A model generated the notes under the pieces. That model saw only the letters and a program-made list of their open reading frames with translations, was not told the DNA's origin and ran no database searches. From positions 2,192,501 through 2,256,500 of the forward strand of contig CATQHT010000003.1 in NCBI GenBank assembly GCA_958296045.1: a stretch of DNA of 64,000 bases, in the 5' to 3' direction. Within the stretch, counting starts at the first letter, position 1. The number at the start of each line of letters is the position of its first letter. This document shows positions 6,949 to 15,676 of the stretch, piece after piece. A program made the position numbers and the translations under genes. The DNA comes from Rhodothermales bacterium. GTDB lineage: Bacteria; Bacteroidota; Rhodothermia; Rhodothermales; Bin80.

Positions 6949-7318
6949 ATGGTAGGTGCGTGGCTGCGCACCAGACGTTGCTGAAGTCGGGCGGCCAGAT
7001 GCGTGAAGAGCCGTTGTGCGCGGCTTGCATTGAGGCAGAGGGCGTGTCAAGCGGTGGAGTCGGCATCCATATAAGTGCACCACTGTGCAACGATGTGTTC
7101 GCGTACGCAGCCGAAATGGATGCCAGCCTTAGCAGGTGTCGGGGGGTAATGCGTGGCGTGCATATTCCAGAGCAAGTGCGCCACTTACATGCACATGTGT
7201 GCATCGTAGTCTTTGGGGCTGTTGGAGCTGGTGTAACTGGGGGTATAACGGCGTGTAGAAGGCCTCCATGTCATCGTTATTCTGGGTCATTGTTTAATCA
7301 GGCAAGAGGCCCAGAGCC
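6949..7318. other. Intergenic, no supported gene
   Basis: About 370 bp after purL. A small inverted repeat (ggtgcg/cgcacc, near 6954-6971) lies just past the purL stop but has no T-run. The open frames here show no recognisable domain and I do not call them. Confidence 0.5.
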
Positions 7319-7513
7319 ATGGCAGCACATCGTATTCCCATGAAGGGAGTCAGGCGCATTTTGGTGCTTTACTTTGAGCCATCCTACTCTGAGCGCCGTA
7401 TAGCTCAGCATGTAGGAGGCAGCCGTCGTACGGTATCTCGCACGCTTTCGCGGCAGAAGCAGGCGGGATTGACCTGGGCGCAGTGCAAGGAGTTGAGCGA
7501 TATCGATCTGTAG
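7319..7513 (+). pseudogene. IS21-family istA remnant (N-terminal HTH)
   Basis: 64 codons matching the N-terminus of an IS21 transposase. The MKGVRRILVLYF start is followed by a helix-turn-helix (SERRIAQHVGGSRRTVSRTL) and then QAGLTW, matching RRAKAAGVHWPLPEG in the intact istA of this window (minus strand near 18.7 kb). It stops where IstA normally continues, and no istB follows. A more decayed copy lies at about 25.5-25.6 kb on the minus strand. Confidence 0.7.
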
Positions 7514-8240
7514 AACAAGCTTCACGGCGTGCCTGCGCCTTGGTCCACGTGCACGCTACGCGCGCGGCCTTGACATGTGTCGTACCCTGCGCTCCGTACA
7601 CCGCCAAAACCGAGTGCGGTGCGAAGCACAGACCGCCCGCTACAACGAGGTACGCTTCACTTGTCGGACAACTATGTGGCCGGGAACCAAGCCTTTCGTA
7701 TCCTATGCCCCATGTAGACTCGTTATTAAGTTGCTCAAGTAAGTACAGGGGAAGGCTACGTGCGTCTCCTCCGGTGTTTCACCACGATTGATCGCGTTAC
7801 CGTGTGGATTCCATCTGTAATGGGTTTCAATTCATCCGTCTGGGACGAAGGCCTCCGAAGCCGATACGCGTCCATCTCAGGGATTTGTCGGGCGTGGGAA
7901 TGTCCCCAGAGTCTGGAGCGGAGGCGTCTTTGCGAGTGCCGTCGGGGACGATGCGGCCGTGTCTCCAAGGGAAGTGCGGATCCCCGTGTCGAACAGGAGC
8001 TTCGGCGTCACCATGCTTGGACGCTGAAGGGCCAGTTGTAATGCAGTCAACTCTTGGAAACGTCTCAATGTCGCAGGACGCATCAGGGCCGTCGGGCACC
8101 GCCGACAGCGGCCTCGTCGGGCGCTCCAGCCGGGGGGACTCCTCTGAGTACAGGGTCGGCCCTGCAGCGGCGTACGTTTCTCACATTGCCGGTCCGCTGA
8201 TTCTGATTGAGTCCCAATCCCTGCCGATGTAGATTCCCTT
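7514..8240. other. Non-coding or decayed stretch, nothing recognised
   Basis: About 730 bp between the istA remnant and the methyltransferase gene. Open frames of up to 142 codons exist on both strands, but none shows a known motif, none overlaps cleanly with a neighbour, and the stretch reads like decayed DNA. It must hold the promoter of the following operon; no promoter could be assigned. Confidence 0.4.
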
Positions 8241-9290
8241 ATGCTCACAGCTCTCGATCTTTTCGCAGGCGCGGGCGGTACCACTCAAGGCCTCAAGGAT
8301 GCGGGCTATAGGGTGCTCGCGGCCGTAGAGAAACGGTCCGACGCTGTCCGCTCGTTCACCGCCAACCATCCCGAAGTAGGGGTTCTGGAGCAGGCCATCC
8401 GCCACGTCGAGTCAAGAGCGTTGCGGACACCGCTGGAGCTGTCTGTGGGCAGCCTCGACCTAATCACTGCCTGTCTTCCCGTCCAGAGCTTTTCCACGCT
8501 CGGCAGGAAGGATGCGTCCACCTCGCGAAACGACCTAATTGCGGAGACCGAACGCTTCGCGCGCGAGTTCCTTCCTGCCGCAATCACCTTCGAAAATGTC
8601 CCCGGGGTAGCGCGTGACCCGCGCTTCGAATGCCTTCGGACGCGGCGGGAACAAACGGGATACCATGACTTTCGGGCCTACGATGTGGTCGCCTCTGACT
8701 TCGGTGTTCCACAGCGACGCCGCCGGCTGATCGCGAGCGCTCTCCAGGTGGGGCCTCACGGGGCGCTGCCCGACGATCTGGGCACCATCGTGCCGGATTC
8801 TCTCGCAGTAACGCAACCAGACGCCGGGGAGGCGATCGACCTCGCTGGACCGATCGAAGGTACGAGCGATTCGCTTCACCGTGCCCGCAGGCCGACGCCC
8901 TTGGTCGTGGAGCGAAGTCGCGCCATGTTGCCAGGAGGAAACCGGTTCGACCTCCCGCCGCACCTTTGGTTGGCCCGTCACAAGCGGATCAAGCGAAAGG
9001 GGGCTTGGGCACCCTACGGGCGGATCCGGCGGAGAGGTTCGGCTCCCACGATGACAACGAAGTGTACCACACCCTCATGCGGGCGTGTCGTCCATCCGAC
9101 CGAGTACCGCGGCATCAGCCTCCGCGAAGCTGCCCTTCTGCAGACATTGCCCCAGAGCTATCGGTTCGTGGGCAGCTATGGGTCCATCGAGCGGCAGATC
9201 GGCAATGCGGTTCCCGTCAGGTTTGAGAAGGCGTTGGGTTTCGCGGTCAAGCGCTGCATGGGGTCGGCTAGAGAGGGGAGGGCGGCATGA
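8241..9290 (+). CDS. DNA C5-cytosine methyltransferase homologue, catalytic Cys replaced
   Basis: 349 aa with the ordered motifs of the C5 family: motif I DLFAGAGGTTQGL (residues about 5-17), motif VI FENVPG (about 118), motif VIII QRRRRL (about 159), a target-recognition stretch (about 170-275), and motif X IGNAVPVRF near the C-terminus. Motif IV, normally PPCQ-FS, reads LPVQSFSTLGR: the nucleophilic Cys is Val (codon gtc, 8481-8483, residue 81). The protein is otherwise full length and uninterrupted. Its stop overlaps the start of the MORC-like ATPase gene (ATGA), so the two are one operon. Either methylation is lost, or the protein now only binds its target, or the base is a sequence error. 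Confidence 0.85.
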   Translation: MLTALDLFAGAGGTTQGLKDAGYRVLAAVEKRSDAVRSFTANHPEVGVLEQAIRHVESRALRTPLELSVGSLDLITACLPVQSFSTLGRKDASTSRNDLIAETERFAREFLPAAITFENVPGVARDPRFECLRTRREQTGYHDFRAYDVVASDFGVPQRRRRLIASALQVGPHGALPDDLGTIVPDSLAVTQPDAGEAIDLAGPIEGTSDSLHRARRPTPLVVERSRAMLPGGNRFDLPPHLWLARHKRIKRKGAWAPYGRIRRRGSAPTMTTKCTTPSCGRVVHPTEYRGISLREAALLQTLPQSYRFVGSYGSIERQIGNAVPVRFEKALGFAVKRCMGSAREGRAA

Positions 9291-11263
9291 GCGAAGAAGC
9301 GGCACTGAGACTGAAGTTTCTGGGAGCGTTGGTCGAGCAGCTCGGAGCGCAGATGTATCCCAGCGCTACGGCGACGATTGCCGAACTTATCTCCAACGCG
9401 TGGGACGCCGATGCTAAGAACGTATGGGTAGAGTTTCCCTTCGGTGAGCCATGGACGGAAGACTCCAAGATCGTTGTGCTCGACGACGGGCACGGCATGA
9501 CCCGCGCCGAGGCAGCAGGTCAGTACCTTGTCGTTGGTCGCAAGCGGAGGGTGGAGGCACGTTCGGACCGGTCGCGAGGGGGCCGCCTTCTTCATGGTAG
9601 AAAAGGGATCGGAAAGCTGGCCGCTTTCGGGACGGCGCGGATACTCGAGTGCTACAGCGTGGCAAGAGTCCCGTCCGAGGAAGGGGCGGACATCACCGAT
9701 GTAGCTCCGATCAGCTTTCGTTTGGACTACGACCACATCCGCCGTCGACCGGCCGGGTCCAGCTACGAGATTGAAGCAGCTCAAGACATGTCCCCGCTGG
9801 TTTTGCCCGGCGGCAGGGAAATCGTCCACGGCACTCGCATCACGTTGTCCAGGCTTCGCATGAAGCGAGCTATTGGAGAGGGGCGCTTTCTCGACTCGAT
9901 GTCGCGACGTTTCGCCCTGGATGCGGCCGAAATGCGCATTTACTTCAACGGTTGGCCGCTGTCGCGCTTCAATTACGATGTGCAGATCCGTCTTCCTCGC
10001 GACATGACGGGCGAGAGGCCTAGAGAAGGTATGCACAGGGGTGGTGATTGGGCGACGGAGGAATTTGCTGACGGCCGACGCGTCCGCTGGTGGATCGGGT
10101 TCACAGAGAAGCCGCTTACCGACGAGAATCAGCGTGGGGTATCCGTGCTAGCTCGTGGCAAGATGGCTCAGCGGCCGTTTCACTTCGAGCGTGTCGGCGG
10201 CGAGTCGAATCAGCTCGGACTCGAATACATGGTTGGGGAGGTGGAGGCCGACTGGCTCGACGAAGGCTGGGACATCGAAGAGGACCGCATCCAGGCTAAC
10301 CGTGACCAGTTGAGGTTGGAGGACGACCTGCTTGATCCCTTCCTCACATGGGGGCGCAAGTTGGTGGCATGGGCACTTCGGGAGCGCCGAGAGCTGCGCA
10401 CGGGAACGGTGAAGAGAGAGATCGCCGCCGATCTGGCGGATCTGCTGACGCCGTTCACTGCCGATCAGCGCAAGGCTCTCAGTCGCATCCCGGCGGCCCT
10501 TGCGGCGACGGAAATGTCGTCTCTCGAAGTAATGCAAGTCATGCACGACGCGGTGAATGCTCGCGACGACCAGGTTGTGCGTCAGATGTTGGAGGACATT
10601 GATAAGGAGGCACCGGACGCAAGGGTCCAGATCTGGGACGTGATTCATCGCTTCGGGCTCATTGACGCGCGTCGTAACCAGACGATCATCGAGGCGCGGC
10701 TCAAGGTCATCGATCAGCTGAAGGCGTACGTAGAGGAGGGCGCGAAGGAAGTGCCGACCATTCACCAGCACATCAAGGAGAATGTCTGGTTACTCGATCC
10801 ACGCTGGCACCTATTGGGGGATGAGGTTCGCCTGGAGGATCTGGGAATCGCGTATGAGCCCGAGCCCGATGTCGGGAGGCGCATGGACTATCTGTTCGCG
10901 ATGCAACCGTCGGCTCCGTCAACTGTCGATGAGATTCTGGTTGTCGAGATCAAGCGCGCGAACAACAAGGACGGGCGTGTTCGCAAGGTCAGTCCCAACG
11001 AAGTGACGAAGTTCCAGGACTACCTCAATCAGGCTGTGCAGGTCTATGCCCGCGACAGACACCCACCGCGGATTAGCGGAATGATGATTGCAGACGGCTT
11101 CAGCGCGGCGGCGTGGCAGAGAGCGAAGATGATAATCCCGGGCGTGCGTCTGCACTACCGCAAGTGGGCGACGGTGGTCCACGAGACCGAGCGCCTACAC
11201 CGGGGGTGGCTTGCCGTGGCGACTAGACGGGCACAATCGACGGGGAGAGACGCCGCTTATTGA
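9287..11263 (+). CDS. MORC-like GHKL ATPase with C-terminal PD-(D/E)XK nuclease
   Basis: 658 aa. The N-terminal GHKL ATPase fold shows the N box ELISNAWDADA (about residue 28), G1 LDDGHGM (about 65) and a lysine-rich lid GRKGIGKLAAFG (about 105), as in HSP90/MutL/MORC. An S5-like domain follows, then a helical middle. The C-terminus carries a restriction-type nuclease core: D534 (RRMDYLF), then E554 and K556 (LVVEIKR). MORC-like ATPases coupled to methylases were described as a family of restriction systems by Iyer, Aravind and colleagues. It overlaps the upstream methyltransferase gene by 4 bases. Likely role: ATP-dependent DNA recognition and cleavage in defence. The nuclease assignment is from motif order only. 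Confidence 0.8.
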   Translation: MSEEAALRLKFLGALVEQLGAQMYPSATATIAELISNAWDADAKNVWVEFPFGEPWTEDSKIVVLDDGHGMTRAEAAGQYLVVGRKRRVEARSDRSRGGRLLHGRKGIGKLAAFGTARILECYSVARVPSEEGADITDVAPISFRLDYDHIRRRPAGSSYEIEAAQDMSPLVLPGGREIVHGTRITLSRLRMKRAIGEGRFLDSMSRRFALDAAEMRIYFNGWPLSRFNYDVQIRLPRDMTGERPREGMHRGGDWATEEFADGRRVRWWIGFTEKPLTDENQRGVSVLARGKMAQRPFHFERVGGESNQLGLEYMVGEVEADWLDEGWDIEEDRIQANRDQLRLEDDLLDPFLTWGRKLVAWALRERRELRTGTVKREIAADLADLLTPFTADQRKALSRIPAALAATEMSSLEVMQVMHDAVNARDDQVVRQMLEDIDKEAPDARVQIWDVIHRFGLIDARRNQTIIEARLKVIDQLKAYVEEGAKEVPTIHQHIKENVWLLDPRWHLLGDEVRLEDLGIAYEPEPDVGRRMDYLFAMQPSAPSTVDEILVVEIKRANNKDGRVRKVSPNEVTKFQDYLNQAVQVYARDRHPPRISGMMIADGFSAAAWQRAKMIIPGVRLHYRKWATVVHETERLHRGWLAVATRRAQSTGRDAAY

Positions 11264-11988
11264 ACATCAAGGCAACGGCATGACAAGAGGGATCGAGGCG
11301 GTCACGGGCGGCGAAGCTCCCGCACATCGCTGCAAACTCCTAGAGGATGTGCTCTGCCACAGCGACTGCGGAGGATGTGCGCTAGGCTAACTCTGCCCAG
11401 TACTCACTTGAGCAACCTAACAATGAGCGCTCAGTGTGCACAGAGTGGGTGCACCTTGGCCTTCAGCCACGCGGTTACCCGACAATCACAGCATAGCCCC
11501 TCGCAGGGGGAGGCCTGAGCTTCACGATGGAAGCGAATTTCACATTGTTCTAAGTGGTGGATGCGAAAGGGCAAGACTTTTCGCGGAGCGGGCGTGGGTC
11601 AAGGGTGTATGCGCTGGCTGCGACGGGTGCGTGTACCCCTGTATCTTGTACCTGACGCTTGATGAGCTTCGACGGAAGTGTGATCCATGGGGTGGAGACT
11701 GCGACAGCTTTGGCTTTGCATGACTGTCTACGGGCTTGGCCAGCCCGGTCTTGTGATTGCCAGAAGCGTCGAATTCCGTCTTGCGACTTGTCACGACGAG
11801 TCAACTCGCCGGGAGTCACCAATAGCCCCCTGCTGCTTTGAGCGCCTGGGGGGGATCTGTGCCTCGGATGAGTACTGTGACAAACCCCCCGTAGGGAGTT
11901 TATGCCTTCGAGTACCGAAACAGGGACTGTTGGAACGTCACAGCGACTCGCACCAATTCGTCCACACAAGTCAAGGGGGCAATCGCCG
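11264..11988 (+). other. IS110 left-end region; possible bridge-RNA segment
   Basis: 725 bp without a convincing gene. The part next to the IS110 transposase (about 11550-11988) is the right size and place for the non-coding left end that encodes the target- and donor-binding bridge RNA in IS110-group elements. It contains a marked hairpin: ggggggg at 11848-11854 pairs with cccccc at 11885-11890 around a 30-nt loop. The left boundary of the IS could not be placed, because IS110 elements lack terminal repeats and usually leave no target duplication. Confidence 0.4.
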
Positions 11989-13242
11989 ATGTTAACTGAA
12001 TCTCAACCCACCTCTTTCGCTGGTATTGACTGGGGCTCGAAGTCACATCAGGCCTGTATTCTGGCATCTGACGGCACGGTCCTCGGTGAAAGGGCCTTCC
12101 CTCACTCTGGCGAGGGTCTCGTTAAGATGCAGGAATGGATTCTATGCCACACGGACGCGGAACCCGGGCAGATCGCCGTCGCCATCGAGATTCCTCACGG
12201 ACCGGTTGTCGATAGCCTACTTGACGGTGGTTTTCGAGTCTATTCGATCGACCCCAAGCAGCTGGGTCGCTTTCGGGATCGGTACTCACCTGCTGGTGCC
12301 AAGGATGACTGCCGTGGCGCTCGCGTACTGGCAGACGCTGTTCGCACCGATCCAAAGTGCCTGCGAGCGCTCAGCCCGCTAGAGGCCGAAGTGGTCGAGC
12401 TGCGCGAATTGTCGCGCATGGCCGATGACTTGACGGCCGAGCGCACCAGCCTCACCAACCGCTTCCGCGAGCAACTTTGGCGCTATTACCCGCAGTTTCT
12501 CGACCTCGGAGATGATCTTTCCGCCGAGTGGGTCCTATCTCTTTGGAAACTTGCGCCTACACCACAGGCTGTGCGCCGGGTTCGGCCGTCATCTATCGCA
12601 AAGTTGCTGAAAAAACACCGCATACGGCGATTCACAGCCGAGGACGTTATCCGAATTTTGCGAGCCAAGCCCGTGGCCGTCGCCCCCGGCGTCGTCGCAG
12701 CCGCAACGCTGCATATTCGGAGCCTCACTGAAAAGCTTGCCGTGGTTGGGAAGCAACTGAAAGAGGCCAACAGTGCTATTGCCGACATCATCGACACGGT
12801 GTCCTCCGACGATGAAGCCACGTCAGAGAAGCCCCAGGCGTTGCGGGATGCAAAGATCCTCTCGTCACTACCAGGCGTCGACCAACGTGTCGTCGCAACG
12901 CTGCTCTCGGAAGCATACGACCCATTGGACACCCGGGACTACCAAGCCCTCCGCTGCTTGTGTGGCGTTGCACCGGTAACCCGACAATCCGGTAAATCGC
13001 GGCGCGTAGTGCGCCGCCGAGCCTGTCAGCCCCGCTTGGTGAACGCCATCTATCACTGGAGCAGCGTAGCTGTACAGCACGATCCTGTCAGCCGCGCCAA
13101 GTACCGTGCATTGCGCCAACGCGGCCACACTCACCGCCGAGCACTACGCTCGGTGGCAGACCGGCTATTGGCTGTAGCCTGTGCTATGCTGCGAACCGGT
13201 ACCACCTTTGATCCCTCACGCACAACTGCTAACAACGGATAG
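11989..13242 (+). CDS. IS110-family transposase (DEDD recombinase)
   Basis: 417 aa. The N-terminal RuvC-like DEDD domain shows FAGIDWGSKSHQ (first Asp), EIPHGPVV (Glu) and the paired Asp in AGAKDDCRGA. A helical linker follows, and the C-terminal Transposase_20 domain has LSSLPGVDQRVVATLLSEA and the serine-containing QSGKSRRVV segment. The ATG at 11989 is chosen over upstream in-frame starts because it is preceded by aaggggg at the right spacing and begins just before the conserved domain. The gene looks intact. Nothing recognisable occupies 13243-13597 after it. Confidence 0.9.
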   Translation: MLTESQPTSFAGIDWGSKSHQACILASDGTVLGERAFPHSGEGLVKMQEWILCHTDAEPGQIAVAIEIPHGPVVDSLLDGGFRVYSIDPKQLGRFRDRYSPAGAKDDCRGARVLADAVRTDPKCLRALSPLEAEVVELRELSRMADDLTAERTSLTNRFREQLWRYYPQFLDLGDDLSAEWVLSLWKLAPTPQAVRRVRPSSIAKLLKKHRIRRFTAEDVIRILRAKPVAVAPGVVAAATLHIRSLTEKLAVVGKQLKEANSAIADIIDTVSSDDEATSEKPQALRDAKILSSLPGVDQRVVATLLSEAYDPLDTRDYQALRCLCGVAPVTRQSGKSRRVVRRRACQPRLVNAIYHWSSVAVQHDPVSRAKYRALRQRGHTHRRALRSVADRLLAVACAMLRTGTTFDPSRTTANNG

Positions 13243-13777: not shown

Positions 13778-15676
13778 GTGTGTCACGTACAGGCATGGAG
13801 GTGAAAGTATGAGGTAGGAAAAAGAGCCTGATAACTACGTGAGGGATGGAGGTAGGCCCTCCGCAGCCGCCAGTCAGGTGGAGGCTGCAAACCGCCCACT
13901 GCTGCTGCGCTTAAGAGGCGTGGTGGTTAGCGAGCTGGGAAAAGGCGGGGAAGTACCCCGTCAGGTACGAGTCGTCGAAGTCGAACGAAAGTGAACCGTC
14001 GAAGACGTGTCGAAAGCGATAGACGATGTCAAAACCAGGGTAGGAATCCGTCCCTGGGACGAGGTCGGAGGGGTCCTGAAGCTTGTCCGATCGGCATCCG
14101 GCATATAGGCGGCGAGAGCGCGACTCAGGCCCTTGCGTGGAACGTGAGAACCTGTCGGAGTGATGCTAAGGGAGCCTGGCAAGTGGGCAATACCCACAAG
14201 TCATTGAGTACCAATGCACTCCACAGGGGCGGACTGTCTCGTAGTAGTGATGATGATCCTGTAATGGGATCGGAGCGAAGGGGACAGCTCGTGCGGCTAA
14301 CATCATCAGAGCAACTCAAAAGGGAAGGACTCAGATGAAGAAAGCAAAGCCGTTTCCAGTCTCCCAGGCTCAGGTCTGGGAGGCATGGCGACGAGTGAAG
14401 AGGAACCAAGGTGGAGCGGGAGTGGATGGCATGACCCTTGCCGACTTTGAAGCTAATCTAGAGGACAACCTCTATAAGCTTTGGAATCGTATGGCATCGG
14501 GTAGCTACCACCCCAAGCCGGTACGACGGGTGGACATACCCAAGGCGGATGGGAGTACTCGTCCGTTAGGGATTCCCACGGTGACGGATCGGATTGCCCA
14601 GATGGTAGCGAAGATGGCGTTGGAGGAGGATATGGAACGCGAGTTTCATGAAGACTCGTACGGTTATCGGCCGGGAAAGTCAGCGCATGATGCCCTGAAG
14701 AAGACACGTAAGCGCTGCTGGGACAGAGCGTGGGTGTTGGATCTGGATATCAAGGCGTTCTTTGACACGATTGACCATACGCTGTTGATGCGTGCTGTAC
14801 GGAAACATACGAGCGAGAAGTGGCTGCTGCTATATATTCAGCGGTGGTTGACGGCTCCGGTCGTGATGCCCGATGGCGAGGAGGCAGAGCGGACCATAGG
14901 CACCCCGCAAGGGGGCGTAATCAGTCCGATTCTGGCGAATCTGTTTCTGCACTACGCCTTTGACAAGTGGATGACGATCTATTTTCCGACGATACCCTTT
15001 GAGCGGTACGCGGACGACATAGTCTGTCACTGCCATACGGAGCGCCAAGCACGCAATCTATGGGCAGCACTGGAGCGCCGCTTTGCGAAGTGTGCGCTGT
15101 CGCTGCATCCTGAGAAGACCCGGATAGTGTACTGCAAGCAGTCCAACCGGAAGGGTAACTATCCTGACGTCTCGTTCACCTTCTTAGGCTTTACGTTTAG
15201 GCCACGAAGAGTGAAATCCCGAGGCGGAAGGCTATTCACAGGGTATACGCCTGCCATCAGCCGAAAAGCCGCAAAGGCCATTCGGCAAGATGTGCGTAGC
15301 TGGCGCCTGTGTCGGCAGACCTCAAGCAGGATGGAGGATCTCGCACGGCACTACAATGCTAAGATACGCGGATGGCTGAACTACTACGGGGCCCACAGCA
15401 AGTGGATCCTGTACTATGTGCTGCAATCCATAGATGGCCATCTGGTGGCATGGGCCCGACGCAAATACAAGCGGTTGCGGCGCAGCAAGCGCCGCGGATA
15501 CCGCTGGCTAAGGTCTATGGCCTACCGAAACCCGCACCTGTTTGCTCACTGGCCGGAGCTCCACGGACCCTCTTTATTCAAATCCAGGCGGCTGCACGAG
15601 AAGAGCCGTGTGAGGTGAGAGTCTCACGCACGGTTCTGTGAGAGCCTGGGGGTGAGAGTCCCCCAGGCTACTTGAC
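13778..15676 (+). mobile_element. Complete group II intron with RT/maturase
   Basis: 1,899 bp. It begins GTGTGTCAC (group II consensus GUGYG) and ends CTACTTGAC. Domain V is at 15603-15636 (34 nt, gagccgtgtg...cacggttc) and domain VI is the gcctggggg/cccccaggc hairpin. The ribozyme domains I-III occupy the 550 bp before the RT gene, which sits in domain IV. The ends are fixed because excision restores the host frame exactly. A 73-bp piece of the same 5' end recurs at 19356, and diverged relatives occur at 35543 and 53446. Confidence 0.92.
14335..15618 (+). CDS. ltrA: Group II intron reverse transcriptase/maturase
   Basis: 427 aa. RT motifs in order: RNQGGAGVDGMT (RT0/1), SYGYRPGKSAHDAL, DLDIKAFFDTIDH, GTPQGGVISPILANLFL, the catalytic FERYADDIV (YADD), and the RT7 region LGFTFRPR. 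The maturase (X/thumb) region follows with RGWLNYYG. No C-terminal HNH endonuclease domain is present, so retrotransposition would be endonuclease-independent or use host nicks. Its stop codon (tga, 15616-15618) falls inside domain V of the intron. Confidence 0.93.
   Translation: MKKAKPFPVSQAQVWEAWRRVKRNQGGAGVDGMTLADFEANLEDNLYKLWNRMASGSYHPKPVRRVDIPKADGSTRPLGIPTVTDRIAQMVAKMALEEDMEREFHEDSYGYRPGKSAHDALKKTRKRCWDRAWVLDLDIKAFFDTIDHTLLMRAVRKHTSEKWLLLYIQRWLTAPVVMPDGEEAERTIGTPQGGVISPILANLFLHYAFDKWMTIYFPTIPFERYADDIVCHCHTERQARNLWAALERRFAKCALSLHPEKTRIVYCKQSNRKGNYPDVSFTFLGFTFRPRRVKSRGGRLFTGYTPAISRKAAKAIRQDVRSWRLCRQTSSRMEDLARHYNAKIRGWLNYYGAHSKWILYYVLQSIDGHLVAWARRKYKRLRRSKRRGYRWLRSMAYRNPHLFAHWPELHGPSLFKSRRLHEKSRVR

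Follow-up and report, generated by a model that had tools for sequence, protein, structure and literature searches.

The window analysed here, a stretch of 64,000 nucleotides from the genome of a Rhodothermales bacterium, contains a two-gene operon whose first gene (positions 8241 to 9290, forward strand) encodes a 349-residue homologue of C5-cytosine DNA methyltransferases. The protein matches the Pfam profile PF00145 with 143 bits (cut-off 22) over profile positions 2 to 319 of 324. It retains motif I (LFAGAGG), motif VI (ENV; E118, N119 and V120), motif VIII (QRRRR; Q158, R160 and R162) and a C-terminal GNAVP motif. Thus the ENV and QxRxR signatures of a C5-methyltransferase are present, whereas the PCQ of motif IV, with its catalytic cysteine, is not. 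Motif IV instead reads TACLPVQSFS, and the catalytic PPCQ of DNMT1 aligns with valine 81, encoded by GTC at positions 8481 to 8483 of the forward strand. An AF2 model of the protein, like that of the ATPase described below, was built from input alignments without one sequence from an annotated plasmid record. Overall pLDDT is 87.9, with residues 81 to 90 weakly modelled (mean 55). A Foldseek search with this model matched MET1 (E 2e-23) and HhaI (E about 1e-16), as well as DNMT1 and HaeIII. A sequence-only reading of this DNA had reported the reading frame, its coordinates and codon 81, the LPVQSFS in place of PCQ and the intactness of the remaining motifs, all of which were verified in the letters. 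A frameshift or truncation is ruled out as the cause, as the frame and both ends agree with those of orthologues. The gene is confirmed to encode a full-length C5-methyltransferase homologue that lacks the catalytic cysteine.

The methylase gene is coupled to the gene for a nuclease-bearing ATPase, as the same reading had claimed. The TGA stop (9288 to 9290) shares bases with the ATG of the second gene (starting at 9287) in a 4-base ATGA overlap. The second gene (9287 to 11263, forward strand) encodes a 658-residue protein, a GHKL ATPase with a C-terminal PD-(D/E)XK core, and is predicted to be a restriction enzyme of the BbrUII/HgiDII type. It matches PF13589 with 61 bits and is called REase_II (type II restriction enzyme) by PADLOC. 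Foldseek with an AF2 model of the ATPase part placed Hsp90/TRAP1 first and MORC2 17th, and the similarity to MORC2 by phmmer is marginal (E 0.05). The nuclease core (10751 to 11092, forward strand) was recognised from predicted secondary structure, with the order alpha-beta-beta-beta-alpha-beta and D534, E554 and K556 as the putative active-site residues. Among 59 relatives, D534 is kept in 55, E554 in 57 and K556 in about half. A Pfam search with the isolated nuclease region returned nothing significant; SduA_C appeared at E 0.15 for one relative only. The protein departs from the consensus at one of 49 conserved columns and retains the GHKL and D..ExK residues, and the ATPase shows no sign of a degradation of the whole cassette. 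The PD-(D/E)XK core of this partner looks intact from its residues.

The operon is enclosed by an inverted pair of repeat arms, the left at 7719 to 7750 (forward strand) and the right at 11396 to 11427 (reverse strand), which are 84% complementary over 32 nucleotides. Both arms are part of a dispersed genomic repeat present in dozens of copies that are about 70-90% identical. Just downstream of the operon, an IS110-family transposase gene (11902 to 13242, forward strand; PF01548 and PF02371) belongs to an element that lies at the end of the right-arm repeat. Upstream of the operon is the remnant of a multi-copy insertion element (7165 to 7540, 376 bp), approximately 90% identical to about ten copies. 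A group II intron reverse transcriptase is encoded at 14335 to 15618; the genome has eight full-length, frame-intact copies of this gene that are 98-100% identical. Elsewhere in the genome there are two other pairs of a C5-methylase and a GHKL ATPase (G000:C3:822495 and G000:C1:534888-538081), both with an intact PCQ. In the list of open reading frames of the window, no second or back-up methylase was found in the operon or adjoining it, and a back-up copy within the operon is thereby ruled out.

The survey of relatives reveals how exceptional the valine is. The sequence-only reading had raised the question whether the cysteine is often lost beside MORC-like ATPases. When 84,980 species genomes were scanned with an alignment of the ATPase, a query blind to the methylase motif, 80 loci emerged, and all 65 unique methylases encoded there beside related ATPases have the motif IV cysteine. 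Loss of the cysteine as a common trait of methylases next to such ATPases is ruled out. When 82 sequences of the methylase subfamily are aligned, position 81 is likewise a cysteine in all 81 others. Of 193 unique related methylase domains, 191 have a cysteine; the remaining two have the valine of the window and one arginine, in Actinomadura. The nearest relatives of the methylase, from a Gammaproteobacteria MAG (L070, 55% identity), a Dehalococcoidia MAG (L071, 53-55%) and Actinomadura litoris (L065, 48%), all contain ACPPCQ. A maximum-likelihood tree places the window methylase as the sister of L070 and L071 (support 100/98), which limits the loss to the terminal branch leading to the window gene. 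In 395 genomes sampled from the same phylum, 294 from Dehalococcoidia and 369 from the class of L070, no orthologue exceeded 56%. Viral contigs searched with single proteins yielded zero methylase relatives and four distant ATPases. A viral survey with the alignment gave a cysteine in 72 of 72 sequences, but this adds little because one search pattern itself contained the cysteine and only four of the 72 sequences do not have that pattern. Among the sampled relatives, the change from cysteine to valine is a single event unique to the window gene.

C5-methyltransferases attack C6 of cytosine through the motif IV cysteine (PMC4802922), and the C135A variant of M.MpeI transfers methyl groups to cytosine only near background (PMC11347137). 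Valine provides no nucleophile, and a loss of methylation is to be expected; it would be the most likely consequence of V81. A useful residual activity that still protects self DNA, perhaps by way of Cys78, is improbable. This residue, three positions upstream of V81, is retained in the window and conserved in 77 of 81 members of the subfamily, and an EcoRII methylase with a cysteine-to-serine change is described in its title, as listed in reference 37 of PMC4802922, as 'partially active'. However, Cys78 normally co-occurs with Cys81 and therefore has not arisen as a replacement for it, and valine, unlike serine, offers no nucleophile; the near-background activity of M.MpeI C135A also speaks against this explanation.

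If the nuclease were active and the methylase dead, the chromosome of the host should be attacked. The nuclease must then be unexpressed, dependent on an active methylase partner or cryptically inactive, or its sites must have other protection, unless codon 81 is in error. An error of consensus or assembly at codon 81, such that the true gene has the cysteine and the R-M pair is normal, has an appreciable chance of being correct, though one well short of even. It would account at once for the intact nuclease partner and for the uniqueness of the valine, and the differences from the sister sequences cluster within about nine bases of a C-rich stretch. Nonetheless, turning a cysteine codon into GTC takes at least two substitutions, and an error at this codon leaves the independent odd residues C246R and F303L unexplained. 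Repeated genes in the same genome are also clean: the group II intron reading frame occurs in eight full copies that align without a gap over 1284 bp and have intact 453-residue frames, and all four IS110 copies have 443-residue frames. This argues against frequent indel errors, while being no test of codon 81.

The odd residues of the methylase bear on whether the gene is decaying. It breaks four of the 46 columns that are at least 90% conserved (C81V, V195A, C246R and F303L), compared to a median of one. Four broken columns are not extreme, since as many as five are broken in four of the 82 sequences. Arginine 246 (CGT, 8976 to 8978, forward strand) replaces a cysteine that is 94% conserved in the 82-sequence alignment and belongs to the target-recognition region. 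The branch leading to the window methylase is somewhat longer than those of its sisters (0.60 versus 0.46 and 0.35), and a relative-rate test gave chi-squared values of up to 5.5, significant in some triplets only. These values fit mild signs of relaxed constraint in the methylase, including its catalytic cysteine and a cysteine of the recognition region, and none in the nuclease. The GC3 of the methylase gene is 0.714, within the range of 0.713-0.722 of two neighbouring genes outside the R-M pair; with frame, GC3 and the other motifs intact, any decay would be recent at most.

The only other methylase without the cysteine in the survey, the Actinomadura litoris homologue with GGPPRLPYS, was followed up in 151 genomes of the family of that species, 47 of which contain a relative; the best 30 loci were compared. 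A group of 11 among them (L270-L280), including the query locus, is approximately 50-75% identical to the query; the group with the altered motif is represented by G100:C33:123883-124875 and by nine other genomes. The motif IV cysteine is replaced by arginine, serine or alanine in ten of the 11 and is kept in one (L278), and five of the ten cysteine-less members have ETT or ECT in place of ENV. The other 19 of the best 30 loci keep GGVPCPPFS or GGVPCPPFT. In eight of the ten cysteine-less loci, an intact PPCQGFS methylase is encoded immediately downstream. Four loci (L300-L303) were opened, with genes called by PADLOC and Pfam on one representative each and the remainder assigned by resemblance. 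All four encode a PDC-M33A-like HTH protein, and three have a DUF6339 (PDC-M33C-like) gene; L301 also has a fragment of a DrmA-like helicase, and L302 and L303 each have a Vsr-type gene. A loss common to the clade and the pairing with an intact enzyme are as expected of a pseudo-methylase subunit, and these homologues look like true bacterial examples. No published description of this actinobacterial cysteine-less clade was found in the literature, which is weak evidence of novelty.

Such a clade suggests that selection can retain cysteine-less methylase homologues, here at loci with a PDC-M33A-like protein. The window protein might by analogy be a catalytically dead subunit that still binds DNA and either directs or curbs the GHKL nuclease, whether in methylation-independent restriction, in regulation or by competing for sites; the intact nuclease partner and gene coupling are in keeping with this explanation. 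It nevertheless seems unlikely. The window gene and the actinobacterial homologues share the absence of the motif IV cysteine, but the loss is common to ten of 11 members of the clade and an intact methylase is a neighbour in eight of ten, and the window gene has neither feature: its change is seen in a single genome and in no relative, and its operon has no active methylase. A second conserved cysteine, in the recognition region, has been lost as well. A pseudo-methylase that follows the logic of DNMT3L would show a loss conserved among orthologues and an active partner in the operon; both are absent here. It is more doubtful still that the cysteine-less methylase works as a DNA-recognition or regulatory subunit and that the cell is defended by the GHKL nuclease with no methylation mark from its own operon. 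The sequence-only reading had left two choices, that the system is off or that the protein is a target-recognition subunit. A disarmed methylase is favoured, and the subunit is not, as all sampled relatives of the window gene keep the cysteine.

A disarmed R-M cassette is the reading given very slightly better than even chances. According to this reading, the cassette has probably been exchanged horizontally and its methylase has undergone a lineage-specific change from cysteine to valine that would abolish methylation or leave a small fraction of the normal activity. The starting point would be a two-gene cassette of a C5-methyltransferase and a GHKL-ATPase/PD-(D/E)XK enzyme, distant kin of BbrUII/HgiDII, whose methylase suffered the change in a Rhodothermales genome. 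With methylation lost or nearly so, the system would be silent or the nuclease non-lethal. The latter might apply if the nuclease is unexpressed, depends on a functional methylase partner, has sites that are otherwise protected or is cryptically inactive. The location of the operon between dispersed repeats and next to an IS110 element speaks for this reading. The conserved nuclease partner counts against a disarmed cassette, as it is unlike what is usual for a dead one. Overall, the window gene appears to have undergone an isolated and probably inactivating change within an ordinary R-M pair, which is no new type of system.

The pairing of an intact-looking nuclease with a presumably dead methylase is a natural test of how far self-methylation is a requirement for GHKL nucleases. 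Should the valine codon be genuine and the nuclease expressed, the present picture of such systems would be incomplete; otherwise, the locus is either an R-M cassette disarmed only recently or the product of a consensus error. The actinobacterial pairs of cysteine-less and intact methylases are a better place than the window to seek bacterial pseudo-methylase subunits.

The known systems most like the window pair are those of the BbrUII/HgiDII type (NF050001; M.HgiDII). The reference family is built as a GHKL ATPase with a C-terminal nuclease next to a C5-methyltransferase, and the window pair has this architecture. NF050001 is the closest NCBIfam model for the 658-residue ATPase and also matches 12 of 12 related ATPases that were scanned. 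However, the window protein scores 205 bits over residues 16-585, below the curated cut-off of 550, and is consequently not an equivalog of this family, and its methylase lacks the catalytic cysteine. Operons of the MORC/paraMORC type also place a GHKL ATPase beside cytosine methylases and nucleases, and a minority of them lack helicases (PMC2292703, Iyer/Abhiman/Aravind 2008). The window operon likewise combines ATPase, methylase and nuclease, but has no helicase or Vsr gene.

Comparison of related cassettes suggests that methylase and ATPase partners are swapped among them. The methylase of L070, the nearest relative, follows an ATPase whose likeness to that of the window is only 32%. The nearest full-length relative of the ATPase (L069, 54%) lies behind a distant C5-methylase and a putative GIY-YIG-like protein, and in L066 (49%) the ATPase comes first, followed by a protein that by eye looks Vsr-like and then by a different methylase. 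More generally, in L065-L071, L094 and L111 related GHKL nucleases, approximately 50% identical to that of the window, adjoin distant C5-methylases; in some of these loci a Vsr-like or GIY-YIG-like gene precedes the two or separates them. This arrangement may reflect partner exchange or, alternatively, a common target read by different methylases. The Dehalococcoidia operon (L071) is syntenic with that of the window: the methylase precedes the ATPase with an identical 4-base overlap, and identity is 53-55% for the methylase and 58% for the N-terminal part of the ATPase. Its motif IV reads ACPPCQGFS, unlike that of the window. The proposal that the valine marks a non-classical system is not borne out, given this syntenic cysteine-bearing operon and an operon in the window with no second active methylase.
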